A stretch of DNA of 25,666 nt from positions 1-25,666 of IMG/VR virus record IMGVR_UViG_3300012960_000003; one strand, 5' to 3'. Below are positions 3-20,647 of this stretch, piece by piece. Below the pieces are notes generated by a model that saw only the letters and a program-made list of their open reading frames with translations, was not told the origin of the DNA and made no database searches. Both the position numbers and the translations under genes were made by a program. This stretch comes from a virus. Position 1 is the first letter of the stretch. Each line of letters starts with the position of its first letter.

Positions 3-962
3 GACAAGAAAGTTCATGTCGAATCCCGAAACATGGTGATTTGGGTCGACACAATCGACAATGCAGATAATCTACCAGAAGGCACTGTCGATAGAACTCT
101 TGGCGACCTGTCGGAAGATGAGCAGAAGATTCGTGCTCATGGTGCTTATGTGCCGCGGGGTGGCAAAGTTTACCCTGAATTTCAGGCCAGCATTCATGCC
201 ACCGTGTCGAAAGAGTGGATGCCACCTGAAACTTGGACAATTTGGGTAGCTATGGATTCAGGCTGGACTAACCCGACAGCCATTATCTACACTGCCGTGT
301 CGCCTAATCAAGAATCGGTCATTACGTTTCAAGAATTTGTCGACAAGGGTCTGCGTGTCGATGAGTGGGTTGAGATCATGAAGGAGTTTGAGAGCAAGAA
401 TAATATTAAAGTTTATAACCGTGTTGGTGATCCTGCTATGAACCAGACCCGGGAAATTACTGGAACTTCAGTGGTCACTGAGTACGCCAAGCTTGGAATA
501 TTCATCGCCACGGAAGGAATTCCGAAGGGTGAAGTAGGAGTTAAGATTGGTGTCGAAAAAGTAAAGCAGTATCTTCGACCTAATCCTCGGCGCGGTAACA
601 GGCCATTTTGGGAAATTTCCCTAAATCGCTGTCCCGTCTTGTGTGACCAAATGAAGAAGCTTCAGTGGGATTACATTCAGTCTGAGAAGTTGCGTTCACA
701 GACTAACCCACCGGAGCGGATTAAAAAGCTGCATGACCACGCCCCGGATGCAATTCGATACATGTTTACACAATATCCAGATTTGACAGATTCACAGCTT
801 ACGGCTGAAAAACTCGAGATTTTCGATGAACACGATTACCTACAGACACTGGTAAATATGGCGAATTCACCGCCAAATGCGTACGCGCCAGTGAAAATTA
901 AGCGGCCGAAGCCGTTTGGTGAAGATTCTTGGGAGGAAGAAAATTATGACTACGATTCCTAG
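3..962 (+). CDS. terL: Terminase large subunit, C-terminal part (5' end outside window)
   Basis: This is the C-terminal half of the DNA-packaging motor, covering the RNase H-like nuclease domain that cuts concatemeric DNA at the procapsid portal. The frame is open from base 3, so the ATPase domain lies upstream of the window and the ATG at 33 is internal. Visible nuclease features are a YPEF-x-H stretch, the first acidic motif AMDSGWTNPTAII (beta strand plus Asp), a VGDPAMNQ motif in the middle, and the last acidic motif HDHAPDAIRYM typical of TerL C-termini. The gene ends with TAG and overlaps the next start by 17 bases. Position upstream of portal, scaffold and capsid is the standard late order. 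The family call is firm; the packaging type (headful or cos) cannot be read from this fragment. Confidence 0.93.
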   Translation, partial: DKKVHVESRNMVIWVDTIDNADNLPEGTVDRTLGDLSEDEQKIRAHGAYVPRGGKVYPEFQASIHATVSKEWMPPETWTIWVAMDSGWTNPTAIIYTAVSPNQESVITFQEFVDKGLRVDEWVEIMKEFESKNNIKVYNRVGDPAMNQTREITGTSVVTEYAKLGIFIATEGIPKGEVGVKIGVEKVKQYLRPNPRRGNRPFWEISLNRCPVLCDQMKKLQWDYIQSEKLRSQTNPPERIKKLHDHAPDAIRYMFTQYPDLTDSQLTAEKLEIFDEHDYLQTLVNMANSPPNAYAPVKIKRPKPFGEDSWEEENYDYDS

Positions 963-1326: not shown

Positions 1327-1621
1327 TAAGTTCCTAGAACTTTTCGAGAGTAAGGTACACTCGAACCAAGAGGACTCGTTTGCAGTCAGACAATTGTTGG
1401 ATAAGACGATCGGATTGTTGGGTACAAAAGACCCACTAGCTTACCAACAAGTGCAGGCTATGCAAACCGTAACTAGCACTGTCGAGCCCGACTATGATCC
1501 CTCCGATAACGGAGAGTTTTTGCGTGAAGTTATGAGAGGCCAATATGACGTCAGCGGTGAACAAGCTCTTGGGCAAGACGAAATTGAACAAGCCCTCCGC
1601 GACGCAGGACTCGAAGTCTGA
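1211..1621 (+). CDS. Small membrane protein with coiled-coil tail
   Basis: A 136-aa protein starting at GTG, supported by GGAGG at about 1200-1204. Residues 3-28 (AWLLMWMGLWLLLAILPSLV and following) form one strongly hydrophobic segment, followed by a basic and acidic helix (RGQLRAERERADKFLELFES) and a polar, acidic C-terminus. It overlaps the preceding gene by 116 bases and the portal start by 77 bases, both long for this compact late operon. Its build, one N-terminal membrane helix then a charged helix, resembles the gene at 6301. Location between terminase and portal does not reveal a role; a holin-like or membrane accessory function is possible but not shown. Confidence 0.7.
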   Translation: MSAWLLMWMGLWLLLAILPSLVIWLLVRGQLRAERERADKFLELFESKVHSNQEDSFAVRQLLDKTIGLLGTKDPLAYQQVQAMQTVTSTVEPDYDPSDNGEFLREVMRGQYDVSGEQALGQDEIEQALRDAGLEV

Positions 1622-3107
1622 CCCTACTAGTCCAACCGACAAGCAATCAAAAGGCACTGTTTCCGACGATGGACTTGTGCAATGGGTTAAGTCGGAGTAT
1701 GACAAGTGTCGAAATCAGAGGGCTCAGTACCAAAAGACTTGGGAGCTTCATCTTCTCCATTACGGTGGGGAGCAGTGGGTAAATCTCATTACGGGTGGCC
1801 GCATTGTTACCCCAAATCTCCCAAGCTACAACCAAAAACTGGTGACGAATCTGCTGCGACCCCTGGTTCGACAGCAGATTTCGCGGATGACGAGCGAAAA
1901 GCCGACAGCTAGTGTTATTCCCGTGTCGGCTAGTGACGATGACTTGCTTGCAGCGCAAGGCGGACAGGCAGTTTGGGATTCACTGTACGATACTCAGAAG
2001 ATTCAGCAGAAATTGATTCGCTGTGCATTCTGGACAGTGATGACCGGCAATGGATTCTTTAAGACTTTTTGGGACAGTAATAAGGTTGATTACAACTTTC
2101 TAGCCGTAAATCCAATTATCACCCAGCCGCAGCCACAGCCTGGTGATTTATGCTTTGCAACCGTAACTCCGTTCAATTTGTTTGTGCCTGACCTTTTGGA
2201 AGAAGAGATTGAGTCACAAACTTATGTTATGGAAGTCTACACCAAGCCTGTGCTGTGGGTTAATACCTTTTGGAAGGACTATCTACAGCATCCTGTCGAA
2301 CCTGATTGCATCGGCAGCCAGGAGATTTTTGAATCTTCTTATTGGAGGATCAAGAACGATAATTCGGCTAAGCCGGATGCTGTCCGTGTTATTGAAATGT
2401 ACCTGAAGCCAGGAGCCCATAGAGATTTCCCACAGGGTGCACTTCTTACAATTGTCGGAGACCAACTTGTCCAGAAGCTTGGGCGACTTCCTTATTCTCA
2501 TGGTGAATATCCTCATGCGCACTGGGGAGATATTCTGACTGGAAAGTTTTACCGGGACTCGCCTCTTGTCGATGCAATTCCTCTTCAGAGGCACTATAAC
2601 CGTACGCGCAACCAGATGATTATTTCTATGTTGCGCACCGGCAAGACGCAACTTGCCTACACTGAAGGATCAATTGATCCTAACCGTGTAACTTCTCGGC
2701 CTGGTGAATTGATTCCTGTTAAGCCTGGATTTCAGCCACCGACACCTATTTTGGCTCAGCCAATTCCGGCGTTTGTCAGTGATGAACTTAATGTCGTTCG
2801 CCGAGACTTGGAGGATATTTCGGCACAACACAGCGTGTCGAAAGGGCAATCTCCGGGATCGGGTGTCGTAGCGGCGACAGCAATTAACTTCCTGCTGGAA
2901 CAAGATAACACTGTCTTTTGGGCAACAATTGCTAGCGGTGAAGCTCTCGTTCAAAAGGTAGCAAAGCAGGCCCTGTCGATTGTTGCCGACATGTGGGACC
3001 TGCCTAGAATTATTCGTACCATCGGTATGGATGCAGCCTTCGATGCTGTTGAATTGAAGGGTGCGCAGATTTCTCGGGGGCTGGCTATCCGCATTGAGCA
3101 CGGATAA
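1545..3107 (+). CDS. Portal protein, N-terminal 520 residues (frame interrupted by TAA)
   Basis: Portal subunits form the dodecameric ring through which DNA is packaged and ejected and to which the tail attaches. The sequence has the P22-type portal layout: a Lys/Arg-rich N-terminal helix region, a motif of the type FYRDSPLVDAIPLQRHYNRTRNQMI in the middle (about residues 335-360), and the long crown/wing helices after it. The start at ATG 1545 has GAGAGG upstream. The frame stops at TAA 3105-3107 directly after AIRIEHG, but the next codon is ATG and the same frame continues for 216 codons with what reads as the rest of a portal (MIPESKTAKQ and so on). Together the two parts give 737 codons, close to the 725 residues of P22 gp1. 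See the TAA entry for the alternatives. Confidence 0.9.
   Translation: MTSAVNKLLGKTKLNKPSATQDSKSDPTSPTDKQSKGTVSDDGLVQWVKSEYDKCRNQRAQYQKTWELHLLHYGGEQWVNLITGGRIVTPNLPSYNQKLVTNLLRPLVRQQISRMTSEKPTASVIPVSASDDDLLAAQGGQAVWDSLYDTQKIQQKLIRCAFWTVMTGNGFFKTFWDSNKVDYNFLAVNPIITQPQPQPGDLCFATVTPFNLFVPDLLEEEIESQTYVMEVYTKPVLWVNTFWKDYLQHPVEPDCIGSQEIFESSYWRIKNDNSAKPDAVRVIEMYLKPGAHRDFPQGALLTIVGDQLVQKLGRLPYSHGEYPHAHWGDILTGKFYRDSPLVDAIPLQRHYNRTRNQMIISMLRTGKTQLAYTEGSIDPNRVTSRPGELIPVKPGFQPPTPILAQPIPAFVSDELNVVRRDLEDISAQHSVSKGQSPGSGVVAATAINFLLEQDNTVFWATIASGEALVQKVAKQALSIVADMWDLPRIIRTIGMDAAFDAVELKGAQISRGLAIRIEHG
3105..3107 (+). other. In-frame TAA inside the portal frame
   Basis: The TAA is followed at once by ATG in the same frame, and sequence on both sides reads as one portal chain. 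In portals of this kind I would expect a small residue such as Ser here (HG-S-MIPESK); TCA to TAA is one C-to-A change. No Shine-Dalgarno sequence lies close to the ATG at 3108, so separate translation of the downstream part would need termination-reinitiation. TAAATG junctions also occur at 8209-8214 and 10679-10684 between genes that look truly separate, so a natural split is possible. Confidence 0.75.
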
Positions 3108-4975: not shown

Positions 4976-6211
4976 GTGCCCGCAACACTTTCCACCATTT
5001 CCGCTCTTGCGAAGGAAATGTACGAGGACCCGCTGCGTATGCAGCTTAATGACGACACCCTGATTCTTCGCCGGATTGTTAAGCCGACTGGTGGAGAAGC
5101 TGACGTTGTGACGGACATGGTCGGTGCAAAGTAACGTACTTTTCGCGTTCACTATCTTCGCGACTCAGGTCTCGGTGCTCGGCGTGAAAATGAAAACTTG
5201 CCGACGGCAGGTCAGCAGGGTTCTGCGGCGGCTCGTATTCCGCTGAAGTACCTTTACGCAAAGCTTGGTCTTACTGGCCAGGTTTTGAAGCTGGCCAATT
5301 CTAAGCCACAGGTTTTCGTTTCTGCGCTTAAGCATGAAATGGAGCGGCTCCGTGTTGACTGCGCTGTCGATCTGAACCGTCAGATTTATGGCACGGGTTC
5401 TGGTGCTCTTGCAGTTACTTCTTCGACCACGTCGTTGAACACTGCTGTCATTACTTCTGGTATTGATAACCTTCAGATCAACGAGGTTATTGATATCTAC
5501 ACCGCTGCGAACTTGGCGGCGGACTCTACGGCGAAGGCCACGGCCCGAAATGTTACTGCCATCGTGAACAACGATGACGGTACTGGTTCGGTGACTTTCG
5601 ACGGTGCGGCTGTGTCGTTTACCAACCTGGACGTTTTTGTCCGAACTGGTAACGCAAACCGTGAGTGGGCTGGCCTCGGAATTAAGGTCAACAACACTGG
5701 CGGTGTCGCTTACGAGAATATTGACCCGAACAACGTTCCCGTGTGGAAGTCCTATGTGAATGCCAACGGTGGTACTCCTCGTGCGATTTCTGAGACGATG
5801 ATTTCCAAGCAGGTCGACCTTACTTATCGCCAGTGCGGTAAGAACGTGTCGGTCATGGTTACTTCGCTCGGTGTCCGTCGTTCTTATGCGAACCTGCTCA
5901 CTCAGCAGCGGCGTTATGTGAACCAGAAGGAATTTACCGGTGGTTTCGCTGGTATTGCATTTACCACGGACCGTGGTGATATTCCGCTGATTGCGGATAA
6001 GGATTGCCCCTTCAACACTCTCTACGGTCTGCGCGAGGATGCAATCAAGCTTTACCGCGAATCCGACTGGTCCTTCATGGATGAAGATGGTTCGATGTGG
6101 CTTCGGGACCCGAGTAAGGATGCTTACTCCGCAACTTTGTTCCAGTACTCGGAACTTGCCACTGATCGTCGCAATGCTCACTTTGTGATTAAGGACATCA
6201 CGGAGAGCTAA
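4976..6211 (+). CDS. Major capsid protein, frame interrupted by in-frame TAA at codon 53
   Basis: This is the coat protein forming the icosahedral shell (HK97-fold type by order and pattern). The start is GTG 4976 with AAGGAGA five bases upstream. The first 52 codons (PATLSTISALAKEMYEDPLR and on) end at TAA 5132-5134, after which the same frame continues without a break to TAA 6209-6211. The sequence straight after the stop (RTFRVHYLRDSGLGARRENE, then PTAGQQGSAAARIPLKYLYA) belongs to the same N-arm and E-loop region, so the full chain would be 411 residues. No credible start with a ribosome site exists just downstream of the TAA: the next in-frame candidates are a TTG at 5198 and an ATG at about 5338. 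Without readthrough, suppression or a sequencing error the phage would make no intact coat. A 338-codon frame on the other strand is only a shadow. Confidence 0.9.
5132..5134 (+). other. In-frame TAA at codon 53 of the major capsid gene
   Basis: The context is GGT GCA AAG TAA CGT ACT TTT, with capsid-like sequence on both sides in one frame. Related coat proteins usually have an aromatic residue in this place (G-K-Y-x-T-F type); TAC to TAA is one C-to-A change. The base after the stop is C, a context that is often less efficient for termination. TAA is also used as an ordinary stop elsewhere in the window (6209-6211, 8209-8211, 10425-10427), so it is not reassigned throughout. Confidence 0.85.
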
Positions 6212-8211: not shown

Positions 8212-8856
8212 ATGCCTCAGCCGCTCGGTACTAAGACTGTCGGTGATGTGATTACCTGGGTCACCGAGCAGTTTGGCGACGTCGCAAACGTCCAAATTGA
8301 TACCCCGAAGATTATTCGGTACATCAACATGGCAGTGCTTGAAATTACGACCCGTGACCCAAAGGCTTACCAGGGACGCTATACACAGAACTCAGTAATT
8401 GGGCAGAATGAGTACAGCTATCCGACAGGGTTGTTGTACGTTACTGGCGTCAAGTACGATACGTCCCTCCTGAAAACAATTTCCTTTGAAGAAATCCAAC
8501 GACAAACTGGTGATTCCTTTACCACTGAAAAGGGAACTCCACAGTACTGGTCTCAACAGGCCGATTATTTTCAACTTTGGCCTGTCCCGGATGCAGTAAA
8601 GACTGTCACTGTGTATGGTTCTGCGAAACCGGCGAATGTCACCGTGTCGGGAGACTTGCTTCCCCTGTCGGATAGATTCTTCCCGCGAATTTGCGAGTAT
8701 GTCGAAGCCAAAGCTAATGAACTTGATGAGGATTACGAGACTGCCGCAGCCAAGATGACCCGATTTGAGGACATGCTTAAGGTTGGGCAGAACGCAGAAG
8801 ATTCAATGCAGGGTACTTATCCTCTTTTCCGTGATCCAGAAGAGGAATGTATATGA
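8212..8856 (+). CDS. Head-tail adaptor protein (podophage gp4 / tail tubular A-like)
   Basis: A 214-aa protein that probably forms the ring connecting portal and tail nozzle. The beginning, LGTKTVGDVITWVTEQFGDV followed by IDTPKIIRYINMAVLEITTRDP, has the helix pair of adaptor proteins of the P22 gp4 / T7 gp11 / DUF6682-like type. A central beta section (NEYSYPTGLLYVTGVKYD) is followed by a second helical pair near the end (RICEYVEAKANELDEDYETA and on). Start ATG 8212 follows the previous TAA directly. The end overlaps the next ATG (ATGA). Neighbouring nozzle gene and size support the call, which is by pattern rather than by a diagnostic residue. Confidence 0.8.
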   Translation: MPQPLGTKTVGDVITWVTEQFGDVANVQIDTPKIIRYINMAVLEITTRDPKAYQGRYTQNSVIGQNEYSYPTGLLYVTGVKYDTSLLKTISFEEIQRQTGDSFTTEKGTPQYWSQQADYFQLWPVPDAVKTVTVYGSAKPANVTVSGDLLPLSDRFFPRICEYVEAKANELDEDYETAAAKMTRFEDMLKVGQNAEDSMQGTYPLFRDPEEECI

Positions 8857-10427
8857 CAACTAAGTTCACACCGGTGAAAATGGGACCTTTCATCGGTGGA
8901 ATGCGAAATTCTTCAGGGTTGGGTGAGAACATTGCTGATAATGAAGTATATGACCTTACTAATCTTGAGGTTGATCTTGATGGTTCCCTGGTAAATCGCC
9001 CGGCTATCGGCGATCTTACGATTAACTGGACGACCGGTGGTTCTGTCGCGCCTAGCCCTATTACAAACTTGCGAGTCATTGGAAGATATATTCCAAACGA
9101 TGGCCGTACGTTTATCGTGCTGTCGGTTTCAAATACCATCAGACTAATCAATGCTTCGTCTGGTATTGCAGAGGCTATTACTGGATCAGTTCAGGCTGTC
9201 TGCTGTATCCAGTACAACAATAAGCTCTGGATAATTCCTAAACCTGGCGCGTCGGGTTCTGGTGGTTACTTCGATGCCACTAACCCGACAATTACCTTTA
9301 CGACAGTAGCGGCTATTCCACAAGGGGAAGCAGCGGTTCTCTATAAGGATCGTATTTTTGTTGGTTGCGGTATTACCGCGACATCAAATACTGCTCGCGT
9401 ACGTTTCTGCGCTGTCGGTGATCCGACAACTTGGAACGGTTCGGATAACTTTGACGTGAATCCCGGAGATGGCGAGAAAGTTGTCGACCTTGTAATTGCC
9501 GGTAACGATATCATTATCTTCAAAGAGCATTCTACTTACAGATTTACTTATTCAAAGCTTCCAAGTGCAGCTGATTTGACTATTATCGACAGCAAAATTG
9601 GTGTGCCTGCAATTAACTGCGCTGTCGTATATAATTCCAACACGGTCTACACGCTACATGACAATGCTGTATACGAACTTGTGAACTCAATTTACAAGAG
9701 AATTTCTTCTCCTGTTGCGCTAACTCAGGTTCTCGATGCAACACTAAATTCCTACGACACTTTTGGTTTGACTTTATTCCGAGACAGACTTTTTGTTCGT
9801 TACTACACAAATATGCTCGTGTATGCATTGCGTGTGCAGCGGTGGTCTCGGTGGACCATGGCAAGGAAATTCAGTAAGATTGTCGTTATTCCGACCGCCA
9901 ACATTGGTCTCGATACTGCGTACATGCACAGCGCCACATCTGCCGATCCGAATAAGATTTACTTCTTCCGGGATGATCGAGTTACAGGTGTCGGAAGTAC
10001 AGAGTCGTTTAACTGGAGTGTTCAGACCAAGATCACTAACTTTGACATCCCACAGGGATTCAAAGTTATTTCACATGGTCATGTGCAGATTGCGACTTCT
10101 GGCAACTTTACAACGACAATCAGAATCCCTAACTCACAACAGAATCCGACATGGGATTATGAAGCTGCGCATTTTATTTGGTCTGATCCGGGAAACTGGG
10201 ATGACTTTGATTTGACGGCATACAGTTCGACTGTTTCACCTGCTGCCGGCGAATATAATGTAAAAGATGTCAAGAGTATCAAGCAGAAGTTCAGATTCAG
10301 AACTATGTATATCTTATTGTCGGGTGCGGCTGTTGCCAACACAAACGGTGCTGATTCCAGTGTGAAGATCATTGGGATGGTAGTATTCCTTAGAGAAGCC
10401 CAGTTGGTGGCTAAGGAGACGAACTAA
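8853..10427 (+). CDS. Tail nozzle / stabilisation-type protein (beta-propeller-like)
   Basis: A 524-aa, almost entirely beta protein. ATG 8853 is preferred to the in-frame ATG 8847 because it gives better spacing to AGAGGA and overlaps the previous stop as ATGA. The N-terminus (GPFIGGMRNSSGLGENIADN, then VYDLTNLEVDLDGSLVNRPA) is the typical opening of podophage nozzle proteins, which describe a ring of propeller blades. Repeated blades follow, with motifs such as LWIIPKPG, RIFVGCG, NDIIIFKEHSTYRF, AVYELVNS, RLFVRYY and YFFRDD. The C-terminal 130 residues form a beta-sandwich-like domain. The presence of this gene straight after the adaptor is the main argument for a short-tailed particle. Confidence 0.83.
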   Translation: MTTKFTPVKMGPFIGGMRNSSGLGENIADNEVYDLTNLEVDLDGSLVNRPAIGDLTINWTTGGSVAPSPITNLRVIGRYIPNDGRTFIVLSVSNTIRLINASSGIAEAITGSVQAVCCIQYNNKLWIIPKPGASGSGGYFDATNPTITFTTVAAIPQGEAAVLYKDRIFVGCGITATSNTARVRFCAVGDPTTWNGSDNFDVNPGDGEKVVDLVIAGNDIIIFKEHSTYRFTYSKLPSAADLTIIDSKIGVPAINCAVVYNSNTVYTLHDNAVYELVNSIYKRISSPVALTQVLDATLNSYDTFGLTLFRDRLFVRYYTNMLVYALRVQRWSRWTMARKFSKIVVIPTANIGLDTAYMHSATSADPNKIYFFRDDRVTGVGSTESFNWSVQTKITNFDIPQGFKVISHGHVQIATSGNFTTTIRIPNSQQNPTWDYEAAHFIWSDPGNWDDFDLTAYSSTVSPAAGEYNVKDVKSIKQKFRFRTMYILLSGAAVANTNGADSSVKIIGMVVFLREAQLVAKETN

Positions 10428-10681: not shown

Positions 10682-11602
10682 ATGACCACCGTCGCTGATA
10701 TTCTTCGTGCCGCTGCCGCGGCGCGGGCATATACTACGGCAGTTCAAAATTCTCAGAAAGCACAAGTTGCAGCCCGTGCAGTTCAGGGTGTGCAAACTGC
10801 AACCAAGGCAATTAAGAATGCCCCGGTTTATAAGGCTCCGGCACCTGCCCCGGCACCTGCAAAGAAAGCCACTCCATCTTATTCCGCCCCGGCACCTGCT
10901 CGTTCAGGGGGAAGTTCGGGTGGAAGTTATTCTGGTGGAAGTTCTGGTGGAAGTTCAGGAGGCGGTGGAGACTACACCGGAGGAAGTTCTGGCGGATTCT
11001 CTGGTGGATTTGGTGGCGGGGGTGATGCGCCTCCTGCTCCGGTAATGCAGGATATTACAATTCCTGATCCGCTTGCCAGTGAACCTTATAAGCGAGCCAA
11101 GGCAGAAATGCAGCGTGCCCGCTCAGATTTTGACGCCCAGCAGGCTCTTGCTCGTGGTCAGTACGACACGACTTTCGACAATGCTCAGCGACAATTGGGC
11201 TGGCGTTCGGCAGTTCCTCGTACTGGAATGAGAGCTTTGCAGCTTGGTGCAGGAAATGACGAGGCTGGATTCGACCCCAATGCTCAGGGTTCAGCTTATG
11301 GTGACGCTTACCAGGCAAATCAGGGTGATTTCGCAGGACGAGGATTGTTTAATTCTGGTTTGTATGCGCAAGCACTGTCGAATATGAATAGCCAGTTTAA
11401 CGATCGGCGAAATTCTGCGTTGACGGATCAAAAGAGTTGGCGCGACACTCAAGACTTGAATAAGCGTAGTTTCTACGGCCAGCAAGATGCCGCAGACGCC
11501 GCTGCCCAGGAAGATGCCATCAGTTCGATTATGGCTCAGCTTGGTGTTTCTCGGGATCAGGTTACTCCTGGCCGACAGAATGTGATTCAAAGGGCGGCAT
11601 AA
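10682..11602 (+). CDS. Internal virion-type protein with Pro/Ala and Gly/Ser linker
   Basis: A 306-aa protein in three parts. The first 55 residues form an Ala-rich helix (DILRAAAAARAYTTAVQNSQ). Next comes a long low-complexity linker, first Pro-Ala repeats (APAPAPAPAKK) and then Gly/Ser repeats (about residues 76-118). The last 185 residues are Gln/Ala-rich with repeated QALARGQYD, QNQGDFAGRGLFNSGLYAQ and NMNSQFNDRRNSALTDQKSW-like helices. The 'FAGRGLFNSGLYAQAL' section followed by Asp/Arg/Gln helices is a pattern I associate with internal proteins of short-tailed actinophages. Likely an ejection protein; the pattern does not prove it. Confidence 0.75.
   Translation: MTTVADILRAAAAARAYTTAVQNSQKAQVAARAVQGVQTATKAIKNAPVYKAPAPAPAPAKKATPSYSAPAPARSGGSSGGSYSGGSSGGSSGGGGDYTGGSSGGFSGGFGGGGDAPPAPVMQDITIPDPLASEPYKRAKAEMQRARSDFDAQQALARGQYDTTFDNAQRQLGWRSAVPRTGMRALQLGAGNDEAGFDPNAQGSAYGDAYQANQGDFAGRGLFNSGLYAQALSNMNSQFNDRRNSALTDQKSWRDTQDLNKRSFYGQQDAADAAAQEDAISSIMAQLGVSRDQVTPGRQNVIQRAA
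10905..11030 (+). repeat. Degenerate Gly/Ser coding repeat
   Basis: Short units related to GGTGGAAGTTCT recur in tandem with changes (GGGGGAAGTTCGGGTGGAAG, TCTGGTGGAAGTTCTGGTGG and so on). They encode G-G-S-S and G-G-G units, a flexible linker in the protein at 10682. Such repeats are prone to length change by slippage. Confidence 0.8.
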
Positions 11603-11606
11603 TTAA

Positions 11607-13310
11607 ATGGCTCCTACCCAGGCTCAAATTCAGACGCTTGTCGCCAAGGGCTACAGTACTCCGCAGATTCAAGCTCTGCTGAAAAATCCGACAGCCCTTC
11701 GGGCGGCTTTGTCGACCCAGCGAAATCCTGTCCCACAGCGGGGACTTGATCCGTTGTCGGGTGGTGGCGCACGCGATCCTTTTACCGGCCAAGTTGGGAC
11801 GACTCGTGATCCTTTTAATGGCGGTAATTTGCCTCAGTCGGCACCACAAGCTGCTCGCAATACAGGTGGTCCGACAACACTTGGAAACATTGGCAGGACG
11901 ATTGCTCAGCAAGCATTGGGAAACTTCAACCTCGGAGCCTTGGGAAATGTGGCTCGCCGTGTAGCTGATATTGCTACTACTGGCGGAAAAGCTATTGGTG
12001 CCGGTCTAAAGACAGATTTGGGCGGCCCTGCTGTCGGTGGAAAACGTGGTGCCAATAACCCTGCTCCCGGTGGATTTGATGGAAGTTCCGACGGGGGTAT
12101 TGGCTATAACCCGGAACCTTTTCAGGCTCCAAGTTTCGAGTACCGGGATTTCACAGACCAGGCTAGAAACCAGGTAGCGGGAATTTACGACCCTCGGTAC
12201 AGGGCAATCGATGCGGCGGCCGCACAGGCAGAAGGGCAATATAACCGCAACGATCAGATCACAGCAGGATTGTACCAAAATCTTGCCGACAATATCTCTA
12301 AGATTGCGGCTAGTTCTGCGGCTCGTTATAAGGATGCTTCTCAGCAGCAAACTAATGCTACGAATCAACTTGTCCAGGACACTGCACAGAACTATTCGAG
12401 CACTCAGAATCAGGAAGCCGCACTTCTGAAGCAGCTTGGGCAAGAAGAATCTGCCAAGGATGTGCTTGGTAACAATTCTGCTGACCAGGCTTACCAGCAA
12501 TCTCAGGCGCAGCGTGAAGGTGCAAACCAGAATGCTGCAATTGTTCAGCAGGGCCAAGGCCAGGCTGATTACCTAAGTAATATTTCTCAGGCTGACGATA
12601 CAGCAGGTGTTGCAGCCCGACAGCAGCTTATTGCTCGTCTCGGAGATACTCTTCAAGGATATCAGCAGAATAAGTTCCAGCTTCAGGGTGACCAAGCTCA
12701 AGCTGCATTGTCACTTGCTCAGCAATTGTCGGATAGAGATTTCCAGCTTCAGCAGGCTAATTATGGTGCCTACAAAGATACGTACGGTGCTAACACTCAG
12801 AACCAACAGTTTGCCGCAAATCTTGGCTTGCAGGAGCAGCAACTTGGTCAGCAACGACAGCAGGCCCAGTTGAGTCAGTTGTTCGATCAACAGAAAGCTC
12901 AACAGAATCAGGCTAATGTCGATCGACAGTATCAGTTGGATCAGGCAAAGTACGGTACTGATTTGGCTACCGCTCTTGCAAATCAGCGTTTGAGGCAACA
13001 GGAAATTGATAATCAGAGCCAGCAGCATAGTGGTACGTCACTGAACGACCAGGACCCCGTGTCGAGGACTATCAGTCAAATTTCTTCTGCAACAGGTGGA
13101 AACCAATCTGCTGCTAAAGATTACTATGACTTTGTTACACAGGCAGTTTCTGCTGCGGCTGCAAGTGGCGAGGACCCGGCCGCTATTGCAGGTAATATGT
13201 ACCAGTTCGTAGATTATGTTAAAAGGGCAGCACAGCAAAAAGGTCTCGATCCACTAGTTGCACAAGCTGCCGCTTCTTCGTTCTGGCAGAATTTTTACAA
13301 TAAGAAGTAG
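11607..13310 (+). CDS. Gln/Ala-rich internal virion (ejection) protein
   Basis: A 567-aa protein with an N-terminal Pro/Gly/Arg/Asn-rich region (about residues 1-170, including LDPLSGGGARDPFTGQVG and TRDPFNGGNLPQ repeats), then about 300 residues of Gln-, Ala- and Asn-rich helices (for example NLGLQEQQLGQQRQQAQLSQ and LDQAKYGTDLATALANQRLR). The C-terminus is an independent helical domain (about 490-567). Long amide-rich helices next to a giant partner are typical of podophage ejection proteins that leave the capsid to form a conduit across the host envelope. The start follows TAATTAA with weak ribosome site. The call is by composition and context. Confidence 0.78.
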   Translation: MAPTQAQIQTLVAKGYSTPQIQALLKNPTALRAALSTQRNPVPQRGLDPLSGGGARDPFTGQVGTTRDPFNGGNLPQSAPQAARNTGGPTTLGNIGRTIAQQALGNFNLGALGNVARRVADIATTGGKAIGAGLKTDLGGPAVGGKRGANNPAPGGFDGSSDGGIGYNPEPFQAPSFEYRDFTDQARNQVAGIYDPRYRAIDAAAAQAEGQYNRNDQITAGLYQNLADNISKIAASSAARYKDASQQQTNATNQLVQDTAQNYSSTQNQEAALLKQLGQEESAKDVLGNNSADQAYQQSQAQREGANQNAAIVQQGQGQADYLSNISQADDTAGVAARQQLIARLGDTLQGYQQNKFQLQGDQAQAALSLAQQLSDRDFQLQQANYGAYKDTYGANTQNQQFAANLGLQEQQLGQQRQQAQLSQLFDQQKAQQNQANVDRQYQLDQAKYGTDLATALANQRLRQQEIDNQSQQHSGTSLNDQDPVSRTISQISSATGGNQSAAKDYYDFVTQAVSAAAASGEDPAAIAGNMYQFVDYVKRAAQQKGLDPLVAQAAASSFWQNFYNKK

Positions 13311-13315
13311 GGATT

Positions 13316-16300
13316 ATGGCTAACACCAACAACAGTGTTACAGCCCTAGCTAATCAGTATATTAAAAGTTTGCAGCAAGTAGGGGCAGGGCGGCCCCAAA
13401 CAAAGTCAACCCAAATGGCGCTCAATTTGTCGGGATATCATCCGAAGAATTGGGGTGGATTTGACGATGTCATTCAGCAAAATGTTGATCCTGGTGTCGG
13501 AACAAGAATTCTCGACATCCTTTCCCGTCCGCTTTACTCCGTTGCAGGAATTGCTAAAGCCACAGCACAAAATATCAATTCTTTGCAGGGTGATGCCGGT
13601 GCAGAGGTACGTAATCCATTTGGTGCCGCTTGGGAAGGCTTTACTGGACGGGAAAAGACTACTTTTTCCGATGCCATTCGTGAAAGTCTTCGTGGAGACA
13701 ACCTCGACAAAACTTTCTTGTTTGGGGGAACTCCTGAGAATCATATCGGTGGGTCAGCAGAAGATGTCCTGGCGGGTGCTGGCGGGCTCGCTTTGGACAT
13801 TGCCCTTGATCCTTCTAATCTTGTCGCTGGCGGAGCTACGGCGGCTATTCGTGCTGGTGCAAAAGCTGCTCGTGGAGCAACTGATGTCGCAAAGGCTGCC
13901 GAAACTGCAAAAGCTGCTGCCACGCCAGTAAAAGAAGTTACGGCCGTTGCACCTGTTCGACAGTACTGGAAGGAAATTACTGATCCGGCTGAGATTGCTA
14001 AGTACAAGATTCCTACTGAAGTAGCTCCTGCGGCACCGGCTCATGTTATTCCAGATGAGATTGTTAAGGAAGCGATCACCGCCGAACCGCCAGTTCTTGA
14101 CCACATTAAGCGCAGTACTGAGCAGCCGACAACTCTTGACAGTCTTGCAATGGGTCAGCATATTAATGTGTTGACCACTAAGGCTGCCAATAATATTTTC
14201 CAAGCTGAGAAGTCTATGCCAAAGGCTCCCGGATTTATTAAGGAGATAAACCCGGAAGAGTACATGCGGTCGGCACAATATGCTGTCGACAGTATGCATG
14301 TTTCGCCTCGACAGCTGTCGCAAGATTTGGGAATCGACTACAAAACTGCTCAGCGCCACATGGCACTTATGGAGAAAGACGGAATTGTCGGTACTGCGCA
14401 GGAAGCGGCCAGAGGCCGTGGACTAGAAGCTGGCCGAAACTTGTCGCACCTGTCGAGGGATGTCAAGGTTAACGAAATTCCTGCTGATCTGATGATTAAC
14501 AGGACGCCTCCGACAGATGTGACCCGTGCAGAGGCTATGTACAACGAAGTAGTTCCAGCCGCCCGGCAGAAATTCGATGAACTGGCAAGTCAAGGCGTCA
14601 AACCGAAGATTACTTCCACTGATGGCAAGTCCTACACCATGTCGACAGCCGATATTTTCGAGGCTTTGCCTAGAAATATCGTCGAAGATTACAACTTTGG
14701 TGCGGCTTCTAAGAAGGGTGCGGGTAACCTGTACCCTTCCCAGTGGCACGCCGGGGCCGCTGAAGCGCTCAGGATGAGCGAGCTAGGCGTCGAACCTACA
14801 CTAGCTGCTCCGGCAATTGCCAAGGCTATGCGAGAAGCTTTGCGTGGAAATGCATCCCGTGCAAAAAGTATTGAAGCAGCTGGGTCGGTAGATATTGTTG
14901 CTCGATCCATGGCCATGAATCAGGCTGCCCTCGCTGCAAAGCTTGTCGAGACCAGTAAGAAGTTTGGGACCAAGGACCTTGTCGATGGAGAGACTCTCGC
15001 TAAGACCAAAGCTGATGATGTTCAGAATTCTATGGCGAAAGGCTCCCTGTCGGAAGCAATTGATTCCGTAGCAAATGTCGGAAACGACATCAGTAAGTCT
15101 GCCAAAGAAATCGGAGCCTCTAATGATGCTGCTGTCTCAGCAGTTCATCAAGTTGGCCCGATGGTTGCTAAAGTTGTGCCGGAAGCTGACCTTGCAGCCG
15201 CGAGGAACGCTAAGTTTGCCGAGAATGTAAGAGTTCGAGAAGGGTTTACCCCCCAAGCTGACAAGAAGATTATGCTCCGACAGGGGAAGCTATATCTTCT
15301 TGTCGAGCGTAATGCTGACCAAATTGCCAAAGAAGCTGGGATTCCGTTCTTGACTCTTGGCGAAAAGACTGACATTACGCTTAACAGTTTTCTCGATAAG
15401 CTTATGCATCCGCTCAAGAATGCTTTCCAATTCGGATACCATACTGGTGGACAAGCACACGAGTGGCGTGCACTAGAATCTCGCGCTGACAGAGAAGGCT
15501 TGATGTTTAGAGCTTCTCTGAGCAAAATTGCAAAGACTCACGGTGACAGTGTTGATCCAGCCTGGACAGCATTTCGTAGAGGGCAGATTCCAGAGGACCC
15601 TGCCGTACTTGCCGCATACAACGATTTGAAAGGAGTTATTGACCATACGATCGGTAACGGTTTACGTGGAAGGTTGTGGCGTAATGGTGCATCCATTGAC
15701 GCAATAAACCAAGCTCTGGAAGAAGCGGGAAGTAAGTTCCGTTTCAAGAAGCCGGCAAAGCCGGAGGATCGCGCACTTGTTCCGGAACAGGTGCGAGATT
15801 GGGACATAAAAGATCCGCTGCCAGAGCTTGAGAAAATTAACAAGGCTGCCTTGCTAATCGAGACGCGCCAAACGGTTGGGGTTTCCGCGTCGCGCTTCGG
15901 CAGTAACGTACCTAAGCCGGGTTACGTTAAACTGCGAGCCGGAGAACTCTCGAAGCTTGGGAATTACGTCGACACAGGTCTTTTTTATCCCAGGGATGCC
16001 GGTGAGTATATTCAGCAGTTGGATAGACTCATCGGCTCCCAAACTTCTTTCCGGGGTCAAAAGGGAGGGATTGCATGGTTTGCGAATCATATCATTGATC
16101 CGATCATGCAAATCTGGAAGCCTTTTATGACTATTGCTCGGCCAGGGCATGTCGTTAGAAACTTGTGGTCAGATATTATGATTGCAGCGTTCAATGGCGT
16201 CATGTCGGTTCGACCGTACCGAATTGCAGCTAAGACAATGCAGGCTGCCGGTGAGTTTACTAAGACCGGAGTCAAGGGTCTTGAAAAGCTGCGTGATGAA

Positions 16301-17236
16301 GTAGTCTCCGGGTCTGATGTGGCATTCAAATACAAGGGCCAGGACATTACTTACCAGGGTCTGTATAAGATGGCCCATAATGAAGGCATCTTGCAAAACT
16401 GGCACTCCACAGAAGATATCATGGAGAATACCAGCAAGATTGCCGACAAGATGATGGCCAATCGCTACATGCAGACCATGGGCAAAGTTAATGAGGCGGA
16501 AGGTCAGTTCTCAAGACTTGCCCACTTCCAGCACCTTCTGGAAAAAGGCAAGAGTGTTTCAGCGGCTGGACTTATTGTTCGTCGACACCACCCTGACGTC
16601 AGGGGACTGACGCCATTTGAGCAGAAGTACATGCGTAGAATTTTCCCGTTCTACAACTGGTTCCGACAGGCAATGCCAGTAGTGTTCAGCACTATGTTGT
16701 CGAAGCCGGGCCGAGTTACGGGATTGTTCAAGGCCGAGTACAATGTTGCTCAGATGATGGGAGTAAATCCCGATACTCTTGTCGATCCGTTCCCGAATAA
16801 TAAACTGTACCCTCAGTTTATTCTCGATAACTTGACCGGACCGATTGCAGGAAATTACTCTGTTGCGCTGGGTATGCCACAGGAAGCTTTGCTTAACGAC
16901 ACTCTAAATGGGAGTCCTGCACGAAACATTGCGGGAATGCTGAATCCTGTCTTTAAGGTGCCTTACGAAGTTACGTCCCGGACAAGGGTCGACACTGGCG
17001 CTAATATCAGCGACATGTCGGATTATGTCGATAGCAACATTCCTATTGTAAATCAAGTTGCTAATATCTCTGGAACCAGTATCACCGGACTTGGTGCTGA
17101 CCAACGCGCTGTCGAAATTGGGGAGAAAAACAGGGTCTTTAATACTCAGTTGGTAAACTTCTTGACAGGTCTCGGCCTGCTGGATACAAGCAAGCCCTCC
17201 TACAAGAATATTGCAACTAAGGAGCGCGCACAGTGA
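13316..17236 (+). CDS. Giant internal virion/ejection protein with FtsK-gamma-like winged helix
   Basis: A 1306-aa protein, the largest in the window. Residues 1-150 include the conserved-looking VDPGVGTRILDILSRPLYSV stretch and an Ala-rich amphipathic section (about 150-205) that may interact with membranes. Residues about 316-372 resemble the FtsK gamma DNA-binding winged helix: VSPRQLSQDLGIDYKTAQRH then MEKDGIVGTA. Residues 380-720 are helical. The C-terminal part carries the signature FEQKYMRRIFPFYNWFRQAMP (about 1099-1120), found in large phage internal proteins, preceded by hydrophobic helices (KPFMTIARPGHVVRNLWSDI). It ends by overlapping the GTG of the next gene. I infer entry into the host with the DNA; an enzymatic role is not seen. 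Confidence 0.8.
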   Translation: MANTNNSVTALANQYIKSLQQVGAGRPQTKSTQMALNLSGYHPKNWGGFDDVIQQNVDPGVGTRILDILSRPLYSVAGIAKATAQNINSLQGDAGAEVRNPFGAAWEGFTGREKTTFSDAIRESLRGDNLDKTFLFGGTPENHIGGSAEDVLAGAGGLALDIALDPSNLVAGGATAAIRAGAKAARGATDVAKAAETAKAAATPVKEVTAVAPVRQYWKEITDPAEIAKYKIPTEVAPAAPAHVIPDEIVKEAITAEPPVLDHIKRSTEQPTTLDSLAMGQHINVLTTKAANNIFQAEKSMPKAPGFIKEINPEEYMRSAQYAVDSMHVSPRQLSQDLGIDYKTAQRHMALMEKDGIVGTAQEAARGRGLEAGRNLSHLSRDVKVNEIPADLMINRTPPTDVTRAEAMYNEVVPAARQKFDELASQGVKPKITSTDGKSYTMSTADIFEALPRNIVEDYNFGAASKKGAGNLYPSQWHAGAAEALRMSELGVEPTLAAPAIAKAMREALRGNASRAKSIEAAGSVDIVARSMAMNQAALAAKLVETSKKFGTKDLVDGETLAKTKADDVQNSMAKGSLSEAIDSVANVGNDISKSAKEIGASNDAAVSAVHQVGPMVAKVVPEADLAAARNAKFAENVRVREGFTPQADKKIMLRQGKLYLLVERNADQIAKEAGIPFLTLGEKTDITLNSFLDKLMHPLKNAFQFGYHTGGQAHEWRALESRADREGLMFRASLSKIAKTHGDSVDPAWTAFRRGQIPEDPAVLAAYNDLKGVIDHTIGNGLRGRLWRNGASIDAINQALEEAGSKFRFKKPAKPEDRALVPEQVRDWDIKDPLPELEKINKAALLIETRQTVGVSASRFGSNVPKPGYVKLRAGELSKLGNYVDTGLFYPRDAGEYIQQLDRLIGSQTSFRGQKGGIAWFANHIIDPIMQIWKPFMTIARPGHVVRNLWSDIMIAAFNGVMSVRPYRIAAKTMQAAGEFTKTGVKGLEKLRDEVVSGSDVAFKYKGQDITYQGLYKMAHNEGILQNWHSTEDIMENTSKIADKMMANRYMQTMGKVNEAEGQFSRLAHFQHLLEKGKSVSAAGLIVRRHHPDVRGLTPFEQKYMRRIFPFYNWFRQAMPVVFSTMLSKPGRVTGLFKAEYNVAQMMGVNPDTLVDPFPNNKLYPQFILDNLTGPIAGNYSVALGMPQEALLNDTLNGSPARNIAGMLNPVFKVPYEVTSRTRVDTGANISDMSDYVDSNIPIVNQVANISGTSITGLGADQRAVEIGEKNRVFNTQLVNFLTGLGLLDTSKPSYKNIATKERAQ

Positions 17237-18507
17237 CTTCGGCCCTTGTCGACAACTCAATATATGACGTATTGAGTGGTCGCCGGCCGAGTGAATTGCA
17301 GGCTCAGGACCCTGACACAAATCCTGTCCAGCAAGAAGGTTCGCTGGACGAGTACGATTATCGTCCGTACTGGCAGAAGAAAGCGGCTGTCACTCAGCAA
17401 CGACAAGCTTCTCAGCATGAGCAAGATAATATCAGCCCCATCGCTGATACTCTTGGCCTGGATCAATTTGCGGCGAGGCTTCAGCCAATTCGAGACATTG
17501 GCCAGAAAGCTCTTGTCGGAGAACAACTCTCGGCACAAATGCAGCAGGAGCGGCAGCGACAAGCTCTAGCTGCTCAGGCAGAAGCTCAGCGTCAAAAAGC
17601 ATGGCAAGATGCCATGAATTCCTTGTATTCGGCTGGTAATCTTGGTCAGCTGAATATGATGCAGTACCAGCAAGCTGGACAGAATTCTAGTGCTGGTTGG
17701 GGTGCTGGCGGTGCTCAGGGTGTAGCAAATGTCATCAGGGCAGCAGGTTTTCCGGAATCTGCCGTTCCGACAATGATGGCTATTGCCATGGCGGAATCGT
17801 CGTGGAATCCTGGTGCAGTAAACACTGCGAACCGCAATGGTTCTGTCGATCGTGGTTTGTTTCAAATTAACTCGGTTCACCAAGGCAATTCCTGGTATCC
17901 AAGCAATCCATTTGATCCGTACCAAAGTGCTGTCGCAGCTTTCAATATTTGGAAGGGTGCTGGCGGAACTTTCCGTGACTGGTCTGTCTATAACAGTGGT
18001 GCCTACCGGAAATATTTGCCTAGTTCTGTACCGCCTATTCAAAAGACTGCGGCTTGGGCAAATCCGACAGTAATGATGGGCAATACAACTGTTGCCGGAG
18101 CTACCGGACAGTTACGTATGACTGCGGTTCAGAAGGGTATGAACTACATTGCCTCTGGTGTCGGGTATGTTTGGGGTGGTAACTCTCTTCAGACCGGTGT
18201 CGACTGTTCCGGACTCGTCCAGCAGATTTATCGACAGCTTGGAATTAATCTTCCCCGAACTGCCCAACAACAAGCTTTCACCGGTACGAAGGCTCCTATT
18301 TCTCAACTTAGACCAGGTGACCTTGTCGCGTGGAACAATGGTGGTTCTCGCGGCATTCAGGTTGGCCACATTGCTATTTATGCTGGGAATAATGAGATCA
18401 TTGAATCTTATGATGAGGGTAGACCTGCAAGACGCAGAAAGCTGTCTGCCAGCGAAGTAAATTCGGGCTACGCTTGGGGCGTTAAGATTCGCTTCCCGGG
18501 GGAATGA
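17233..18507 (+). CDS. Virion-associated lysin: lytic transglycosylase-like plus NlpC/P60 domains
   Basis: A 424-aa protein starting at GTG 17233, overlapping the previous stop. The first 145 residues are Gln/Ala-rich and probably anchor it in the virion. Residues about 155-265 form a lysozyme-like/SLT domain with MAIAMAESSWNPGAV (catalytic Glu188), GLFQIN and later AFNIWKGAGG. Residues about 295-424 are an NlpC/P60 endopeptidase with the Cys of VDCSGLVQ (Cys325) and the His of VGHIAIY (His379). The protein would open glycan strands and peptide cross-links locally during DNA entry. It follows the ejection genes rather than lying with the lysis genes on the other strand, which supports a role in infection rather than release. 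Confidence 0.9.
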   Translation: MTSALVDNSIYDVLSGRRPSELQAQDPDTNPVQQEGSLDEYDYRPYWQKKAAVTQQRQASQHEQDNISPIADTLGLDQFAARLQPIRDIGQKALVGEQLSAQMQQERQRQALAAQAEAQRQKAWQDAMNSLYSAGNLGQLNMMQYQQAGQNSSAGWGAGGAQGVANVIRAAGFPESAVPTMMAIAMAESSWNPGAVNTANRNGSVDRGLFQINSVHQGNSWYPSNPFDPYQSAVAAFNIWKGAGGTFRDWSVYNSGAYRKYLPSSVPPIQKTAAWANPTVMMGNTTVAGATGQLRMTAVQKGMNYIASGVGYVWGGNSLQTGVDCSGLVQQIYRQLGINLPRTAQQQAFTGTKAPISQLRPGDLVAWNNGGSRGIQVGHIAIYAGNNEIIESYDEGRPARRRKLSASEVNSGYAWGVKIRFPGE

Positions 18508-19079: not shown

Positions 19080-20051
19080 TCAGCTAGGAGGCTTCGGAAG
19101 AAGCTGATTAACTGATGCTTGCAAAGCATCAACCTTAAGCGTAAGATCAGTCAGAGTTTGCATGATCTTACCAAGTCCATTGACCGGGCTGAAAATCTGC
19201 TGGTTACTGGCATTGATGGATGAAATGATATTGTCGGTGTTCTTCTGGTCATCCGGGATGCCGTCCTGGTTTCCAAAAGCGAACCGGTAGGCCAGAAGCG
19301 CGTTGACAGAATCGTTGCAGACCTGTCGAATTTCTGGGATCAGTGCACCAATGACAGCGTCCTTGGAGACGTTAATCCAGTTCGGAACAAACTGATAAAT
19401 TCCACGGTTAGTTCCTGCAAGGCTTCCGATGACAGATTCGGTTCCCGGCATCCCACCCATCGGGACCTTACTGGGATCGTTGAAATACGAATCCGGGTCT
19501 GTGTAGGTCATTGGGTACCAACCTTTCCAGAAGTTATCTTCTGTCGGAGTACTGCCGGAGTCAAGCACGATTTGAGCATATTGGATGTTGCGTTTGTAGT
19601 TGTCGCCTGCCGAGAACTCTGAACCTTGAACTTTCTGACAGGCTTCGTGGATCGGCATATTCTGCCAATCGTATTTATTCAGTCCTGCCGCACTACTACC
19701 GTTAGGGAACTTGAATCCGACCAAGAACCCTGTGGCAGCCTTGTAAGGGTCCATGACATCAGGTCCCCAAAACTGCGGCTGTTGCTGAAAAAGTCCACCA
19801 CTTCGCTGAGTAGACCAAGATTTACTAGGGGGATCGCCGTCATTAGGATGGTAGTTGTAAAAGGAGGGTTCCCTAGGGTTAGTGTAATTGAGCCAGCCAA
19901 AAGGTCTACCGTCACAAGTTTCAGTGATAATTGTAGTGTAGACAATGAGTCTGACTTTGTCATTCCACATCCTACAATCTCTGATTGCTTTGTCTACCTG
20001 TTGTTTGTAGAAGTCATAGTGAGGTGATTTTACTAGGCTGCCGGAAACCAT
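19080..20051 (-). CDS. Endolysin, lysozyme/transglycosylase-like glycosidase
   Basis: A 323-aa protein from ATG 20051 (GGTGGA upstream); an in-frame TTG at 20063 and GTG at 20060 would add a few residues. The start overlaps the end of the amidase gene by 19 bases. The first 175 residues are a lysozyme-like domain of actinophage lysin A type: VYTTIITETCDGRPFGW (catalytic Glu candidate near 44), then GGLFQQQPQFWG and DPYKAATGFL. The middle is Asp/Pro/Gly-rich, and the last 35 residues form a short coiled coil (LGKIMQTLTDLTLKVDALQA) ending in KPPS. It would cut the glycan strands at the end of infection. No signal peptide is visible, so export needs a holin. Confidence 0.8.
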   Translation of the reverse strand: MVSGSLVKSPHYDFYKQQVDKAIRDCRMWNDKVRLIVYTTIITETCDGRPFGWLNYTNPREPSFYNYHPNDGDPPSKSWSTQRSGGLFQQQPQFWGPDVMDPYKAATGFLVGFKFPNGSSAAGLNKYDWQNMPIHEACQKVQGSEFSAGDNYKRNIQYAQIVLDSGSTPTEDNFWKGWYPMTYTDPDSYFNDPSKVPMGGMPGTESVIGSLAGTNRGIYQFVPNWINVSKDAVIGALIPEIRQVCNDSVNALLAYRFAFGNQDGIPDDQKNTDNIISSINASNQQIFSPVNGLGKIMQTLTDLTLKVDALQASVNQLLPKPPS

Positions 20052-20647
20052 TGGTTCCACCAATTTGCAGGTTTGCCGCTGTCGATGAGACCTTGAATAA
20101 TTGCTACCTGTTCATTCCATTCCCTCTGCCAGACAGCAGGATCGTAAGATGAACCAGTTTCTCCAAAATCAGGATCAGGCTTTCTTCCGACAGGGCGAGC
20201 GATCATCTTGTGGAATCGCATTCGCGAAGCCGGCCAGCCTTCATGTCGAAAGATAGAGGCATAGCCTCGTTGCACGCTGTCGATCAAAGCAGGTGAAGGT
20301 TGTTCCCCTGTCGTCTGATCTGTTTCTGTGCCAGCCGAATTATAGCTTGTGACGATATTATCGGTGACACCGGCGTGCCATGCAAGACCGCTTCCGACAA
20401 AATGCCAAGTTCCATCATAGCCGATAATGATTTGTGCTGACGGCTGCTCAGCATTGTATGCGTTAATCAGCCAATCAACATCACCCGGAGTAGGTCCGGG
20501 CGGAGAACCATCATGGTGCCAGACAAGATAGTCCAGGCTATGAAGCGGACCCATTGGTTGATTGTTTCGCCAGTTGTTGTGTTCTGCTACTTTGTATGGA
20601 AAGATTGGACTAGCTCGAAGAACGTCGGCCCAGTCACGGATTCCCAT
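20033..20647 (-). CDS. Endolysin, N-acetylmuramoyl-L-alanine amidase (Amidase_2/PGRP)
   Basis: A 204-aa, single-domain amidase that would release the stem peptide from muramic acid. The zinc-binding pattern of the PGRP/Amidase_2 family is visible: LVWHHDGS (His44 or 45), WHAG (His91 region), and FHKMIARPVGRKPDPD (His146, Lys156, Asp158). The start at ATG 20647 has GAGGAG at 20656-20661. In many actinophages this domain and the glycosidase are fused in one lysin A; here they are two overlapping genes, both complete, in different frames. There is no membrane segment or cell-wall-binding repeat. It is the first gene of the leftward lysis transcript. Confidence 0.9.
   Translation of the reverse strand: MGIRDWADVLRASPIFPYKVAEHNNWRNNQPMGPLHSLDYLVWHHDGSPPGPTPGDVDWLINAYNAEQPSAQIIIGYDGTWHFVGSGLAWHAGVTDNIVTSYNSAGTETDQTTGEQPSPALIDSVQRGYASIFRHEGWPASRMRFHKMIARPVGRKPDPDFGETGSSYDPAVWQREWNEQVAIIQGLIDSGKPANWWNQWFPAA

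Follow-up and report, generated by a model that had tools for sequence, protein, structure and literature searches.

We propose that a giant internal protein of one actinobacterial podovirus lineage carries an FtsK-gamma-like winged helix, added to its N-terminal third, and that this predicted domain serves as a lineage-specific grip on double-stranded DNA, a reading to which we assign a probability of about one half. The protein is encoded in a 25,666-base IMG/VR virus record (IMGVR_UViG_3300012960_000003), which was analyzed over its whole length (hereafter, the window); all coordinates are positions in this window. The features on which the argument rests are listed below.

1545..3107, + strand: P22-type portal protein (Pfam/PHROGs)
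5198..6211, + strand: SU10-type major capsid protein (E 4.5e-8)
8212..8856, + strand: SU10-type head-tail adaptor (E 4.3e-23)
8847..10427, + strand: structural protein, 526 aa (phrog_33544; phrog_3287, virion structural protein)
10682..11602, + strand: glycine-rich 306-aa protein, candidate partner internal protein from gene order
11607..13310, + strand: 567-aa protein directly upstream of the giant ORF, candidate partner internal protein from gene order
13316..17236, + strand: giant ORF, 1306 aa, Jasminevirus-type (phrog_36598) internal/ejection-type protein (PHROGs, profile search)
14234..14524, + strand: putative accessory module, residues about 307-403 of the giant ORF, without counterpart in the relative L012
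14261..14431, + strand: predicted winged helix-turn-helix, residues 316-372, with FtsK_gamma as best Pfam match (residues 316-364)
14330..14386, + strand: turn and recognition helix, residues 339-357 (GIDYKTAQRHMALMEKDGI)
15782..17233, + strand: conserved C-terminal region, residues 823-1306, confidently predicted to be all-helical
17233..18507, + strand: SLT transglycosylase and NlpC/P60 wall lysin, next gene after the giant ORF
20033..20647, - strand: Amidase_2 gene, a separate wall-degrading gene

The carrier protein and its gene neighbourhood

The giant gene follows the neck and tail genes and lies together with a wall-degrading function, as in podoviruses. It shares 4 bases with the gene of the SLT and NlpC/P60 lysin, which is probably virion-borne, while the Amidase_2 gene stands on the opposite strand, as do genes for an RNase_T-type exonuclease and a family A DNA polymerase whose closest relatives are in the same phages as those of the giant protein. 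Pfam and PHROGs gave no meaningful family match for the 567-aa protein upstream. A tblastn search with the giant protein returned 12 phage records at a coverage of at most 39%, from phages of Arthrobacter (8), Microbacterium phage Shocker (2), Cellulosimicrobium phage DS1, and an uncultured podovirus. The closest isolated relative, Arthrobacter phage Jasmine, was reported to be a podovirus, with terminal repeats of 1,330 bp (PMC5513430). The giant proteins of these relatives are longer than that of the window (Jasmine gp28, 1803 aa; Shocker gp37, 1743 aa; DS1, 1783 aa). A Streptomyces griseosporeus assembly yielded a further relative: its contig NZ_BNBR01000011.1 (46,429 bases) carries phage genes as well and looks like a whole phage genome inside a bacterial assembly.

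Proteins that share the C-terminal 484 aa form a large family. A profile of this region found 136 IMG/VR relatives, 80 of which were kept, and in 71 non-duplicate relatives the giant protein ranged from 891 aa (cut by a contig end) to 2093 aa. In 58 of the 66 relatives with sequence there, the stop of the giant gene is adjoined by the start of an ORF of 100 aa or more; when these 58 downstream proteins and that of the window (59 proteins) were scanned with Pfam, wall-degrading families were the commonest, with overlapping counts (NLPC_P60 19, SLT 14, SLT_3 9, CHAP 5, and Peptidase_M23 4). A structure prediction from 64 sequences gave an all-helical C-terminal region at pLDDT 87. Against the PDB, solved ejection proteins included, this model scored no better than E 0.67 and Z 3.4, a result that speaks against no particular family. 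Near the other end of the protein, the motif G-x-x-G-x-x-x-D-x-x-x-D-P (residues 154-166, window 13775-13813) is nearly invariant among the giant proteins.

Position, size, the lysin neighbour, and the separate amidase gene make it likely that the giant protein is of the ejection type. The gene context thus fits the original prediction, which spoke of a giant ejection-type protein, and it is from this context that we infer the ejection role itself. The winged helix was the sole functional domain that Pfam and PHROGs detected in the 1306-aa protein, which therefore lacks the several unrelated domains by which polyvalent proteins are recognized; in Pfam it had neither an FtsK/SpoIIIE motor domain nor an enzymatic or other effector domain.

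A predicted winged helix that resembles FtsK gamma

It had been claimed from the sequence that residues about 316-372 follow the FtsK gamma pattern, and every quoted motif was found there, within 14240-14450: Y316-x3-A320-x3-V324, VSPRQLSQDLGIDYKTAQRH, MEKDGIVGTA, and ARGRGLE. The same prediction described a basic end; the ARGRGLE motif is real, but the net charge of residues 316-372 is 0.

When an 81-aa segment (window 14213-14455) was searched against Pfam with hmmscan, FtsK_gamma (PF09397) came first (E 1.5e-5, 25.0 bits; profile positions 7-55 of 63), followed by HTH_29 (2.9e-4), HTH_24 (1.8e-3), HTH_11 (0.019), and MarR_2 (0.055). FtsK_gamma remained the top Pfam match when the whole protein was used (E 8.4e-4, 19.4 bits), and a search of the window DNA with its profile gave 24.5 bits (E 5.4e-7). 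Both protein scores lie below the curated cut-off of the family, 30.6 bits, as do those of the relative L010, identical to L002 (18.5 and 13.7 bits). At the equivalent site of this relative (67% identical), HTH_24 (4e-4) ranked before FtsK_gamma (1.7e-3), HTH_29 (2.4e-3), and MarR_2 (5.8e-3). The profile check envisaged beforehand therefore supports the prediction in the ranking of families and falls short of it in the score. Judged by these profiles, residues 316-372 match a winged helix beyond chance, yet under the curated FtsK_gamma threshold. Sequence searches of solved structures had ArsR/MarR-type entries at best E values of 0.25-0.88, and FtsK gamma was absent from these lists; the search with a two-sequence profile returned only entries of this type, the best at E 0.25.

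FtsK gamma did appear in the structure-based match lists. The AlphaFold2 model of residues 290-412, built from a two-row alignment, had a mean pLDDT of 70.8, with core blocks at 81-92; it shows helices at model positions 24-36, 42-49, and 53-65, an extra wing helix at 72-79, and a strand at 92-94. VIA-align superposed this predicted winged helix-turn-helix on FtsK gamma (2ve8_A) with Z 8.9 and an rmsd of 2.2 over 66 of 67 residues at 26% identity, and on KOPS-bound FtsK gamma (2ve9) with Z 8.6 over 63 of 63 residues. Hop1 (9myp, Z 9.1), a ribosomal protein (9e71, Z 8.9), and a MarR protein (2qww, Z 8.3) scored much the same, and these values are ties between FtsK gamma and other winged helices. 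Foldseek gave no match below E 0.001 and placed FtsK gamma (2ve8_B) at rank 11 with E 0.19. The two outcomes named in advance as speaking against the prediction, the lack of a match to the gamma fold and a structure without a winged helix, did not occur.

An accessory module with a conserved recognition helix

The winged helix appears to be an accessory part of the giant protein. The N-terminal parts of the window protein and 71 relatives were scanned with Pfam in two sets of 36; winged-helix families turned up in 2 proteins of one set, those of the window and L010, and in none of the other set. In the remaining 70 of these 72 proteins a winged helix went undetected by Pfam HMMs, which a more diverged copy could escape. 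As far as the sequences tell, two lineages carry the module and their relatives are without it. L002 and L004 belong to the same contig family, and a scan with the module alone found no viral relatives beyond the same three contigs. No cellular relatives were found in genome contigs with the two-sequence profile, although 134 stretches matched a pattern. In Shocker gp37, a weak Sigma70_r4_2 HTH match (E 0.05) was seen at another place, residues 783-807, which may have arisen by chance or represent another, independent HTH.

A comparison with L012 (59% identical in the C-terminal region), which lacks residues about 307-403, brackets the module. The upstream flank aligns (window 257-306 with L012 341-390; score 60 against a best of 48 in 500 shuffles), and so does the downstream flank (RAQAMYDEV in the window, RAEAMYNEV in L012). 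A simple clean insertion was nevertheless dropped as an explanation, given that 198 versus 196 residues lie between the anchors; L012 carries about as many unrelated residues further upstream, and the region has therefore been remodelled.

The ORFs of the window and L010 share 71% identity over 1288 aligned residues, distributed as 119/255 in residues 1-255, 25/54 in 256-309, 39/63 in 310-372, 330/427 in 403-829, and 377/477 in 830-1306. Within the module, the recognition helix (residues 339-357) is identical at 18 of 19 positions, compared with about 46% in its flanks, which indicates that it is under selection, and K343, R347, and H348 are retained in both carrier lineages. It is the sole 19-aa window with 18 identities among 203 in residues 181-402; across the giant family, 153 of 1288 such windows equal it in conservation, and the helix is exceptional only in comparison with the fast-evolving N-terminal region around it. 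Synonymous sites in the module are saturated (pS 0.83) while pN in the recognition stretch is 0.02. Taken with the identities, this pattern suggests a contact helix that is kept while its surroundings drift.

Proposed function and alternatives

We suggest that the head contains the giant protein, which would exit together with the DNA or ahead of it, and that the module of this protein would hold double-stranded DNA of the phage, whether within the capsid, on the way through the exit channel, or immediately after entry into the cell. By analogy, the holding could be much like that by T7 gp16-C and gp15 but through a dedicated domain. The basic machine evidently works without a winged helix, as 70 of the 72 family members have no detectable one. 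The zero net charge of residues 316-372 means that DNA binding is not obvious, and it counts against simple non-specific binding.

The same zero charge counts in favour of a winged helix that is a protein-protein or packing module, which would bind no DNA and would contact a partner ejection protein or the portal, or else a host protein. This is the main rival to the DNA grip, and we consider it possible although doubtful: ribosomal and eukaryotic winged-helix proteins score equally in the fold comparison, but the conserved positions cluster in the turn and recognition helix and include the three residues kept in both lineages. Alternatively, the protein might be an injected regulator of the polyvalent-protein type, which would bind a phage or host promoter and steer the first transcription or block a host factor. 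Polyvalent proteins are reported to contain, in rare cases, the FtsK wHTH and other HTH domains (PMC5512222), and the Foldseek match at rank 10 among viral models (E 0.14, rmsd 2.5) was an uncultured-phage protein annotated as "large polyvalent protein-associated domain"; we nevertheless regard such a role as unlikely, with no effector domain found by Pfam and a remainder that looks structural. A sequence-reading winged helix, re-targeted from the FtsK gamma type, which would mark one packaged genome end and link this end with the ejection apparatus for release of a chosen end first, seems to us quite improbable. The preferred reading remains a lineage-specific grip on double-stranded DNA.

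Relationship to FtsK gamma

The alternative that survives least well is a true, host-derived FtsK gamma that reads host KOPS-like words or contacts XerD near dif. Beyond the best Pfam match, it draws on a search of 60 genomes from one actinobacterial class, 59 of which had an FtsK_gamma match, nearly always once per genome. A profile of the window and L010 sequences matched 55 of the 60 genomes at E 1 or better; FtsK gamma was among the matches in 47 of these 55 and the best match in 36, so that a single domain came first despite competing families that numbered 7-100 MarR_2-type and 5-70 HTH_24-type matches per genome (16 genomes). The 36 results are not independent, because the FtsK domains of the 60 genomes are one family. 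With the window sequence alone FtsK gamma was best in 22 of 55 genomes, and with L010 alone in 0 of the 32 genomes that had a match; the strength of the search thus comes from the window sequence and not from its relative, and we rejected it as proof of descent. An hhalign comparison was rejected for the same purpose, as it did not separate the two candidates: the MarR_2 set reached 87.0%, FtsK gamma 79.4%, and the HTH_24 (Lrp-type) set 61.1%, with an FtsK alignment that was shallow (Neff 1.4 versus 4.0).

The residues that would read KOPS have mostly changed. In E. coli FtsK the contacts are N1296, R1300, and E1303 (PMC2533119), and an alignment through actinobacterial FtsK places K343, R347, and A350 at these positions, with the same K, R, and A in L010. 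One of the three is kept, the arginine R347, and K343 and A350 differ also from actinobacterial FtsK, which has A, R, and D. Neither word is enriched in the window: the E. coli KOPS GGGNAGGG was seen 2 times against 2.39 expected, and the B. subtilis SRS GAGAAGGG 2 times against 0.88 expected, a count that 20 of 100 shuffles reach. With the contacts altered and the words at background, we rejected a KOPS/SRS reader of the host type, and the reading of such words by the module is not supported; if the module has a DNA word, it is unlikely to be KOPS. Altered contacts, a score below the Pfam cut-off, and the failure of L010 to find FtsK gamma leave a host-derived domain with these host contacts very unlikely, and from the sequence comparisons we concluded that "FtsK-gamma-like winged helix" describes the module better than family member.

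Comparison with known systems

The gamma domain of FtsK/SpoIIIE (PF09397; 2j5o, 2j5p, 2ve8, 2ve9) has the same winged-helix size and order of elements as the module, and the actinobacterial FtsK pattern RLMDLMESRGIVG resembles RHMALMEKDGIVG of the module. In contrast to FtsK gamma, the module is not mounted on a DNA-pump motor, scores under the Pfam cut-off, and has K and A in place of N1296 and E1303; its wing, for which one more helix is predicted, is longer.

Giant injected proteins that carry an FtsK-type winged helix have been published before: Iyer et al. (2017) list the FtsK wHTH as an infrequent domain of polyvalent proteins, for which they propose entry into the cell along with the DNA (PMC5512222). 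These are likewise large proteins with a rare winged helix of this type (for example, Cupriavidus WP_029307715), but the carrier described here belongs to a podovirus internal-protein family rather than to the metallopeptidase or methylase type that they report, and no second functional domain was detected in it. In Bacillus phages Sam46 and Sam112, FtsK_gamma is reported as fused to the small terminase with E about 2e-27 and with DNA-contact residues said to be conserved (PMC8190038). There too a gamma-type domain is joined to a phage virion-assembly protein, whereas our match is weak and its giant protein is encoded downstream of the capsid genes. No description of an FtsK-type winged helix in a podovirus internal protein was found in the openly licensed literature searched.

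Jasmine gp28, Shocker gp37, and the DS1 protein are homologous in their C-terminal third (28-32% identity) and share the gene order, with a lysin directly downstream, but a winged helix of the module's kind was undetected in them by Pfam. It is poorly understood how the internal proteins of short-tailed phages keep hold of DNA and pass it on, and most poorly so for actinobacterial podoviruses. With a DNA-binding fold that is discrete and removable, and a close relative without the module, the question would become testable with one small recombinant domain. The nearest working parallel is T7, whose ejection proteins gp15 and gp16-C are reported to bind DNA, gp16-C independently of sequence in the cytoplasm (PMC8954989). 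These too are large podovirus DNA-binding proteins encoded with a wall-cutting activity; the likeness rests on no sequence or fold relationship, and here the transglycosylase has a gene of its own and a discrete winged helix would bind the DNA. In addition to polyvalent proteins and small terminases, the giant protein may represent a second route for FtsK-type winged helices into phage proteins.
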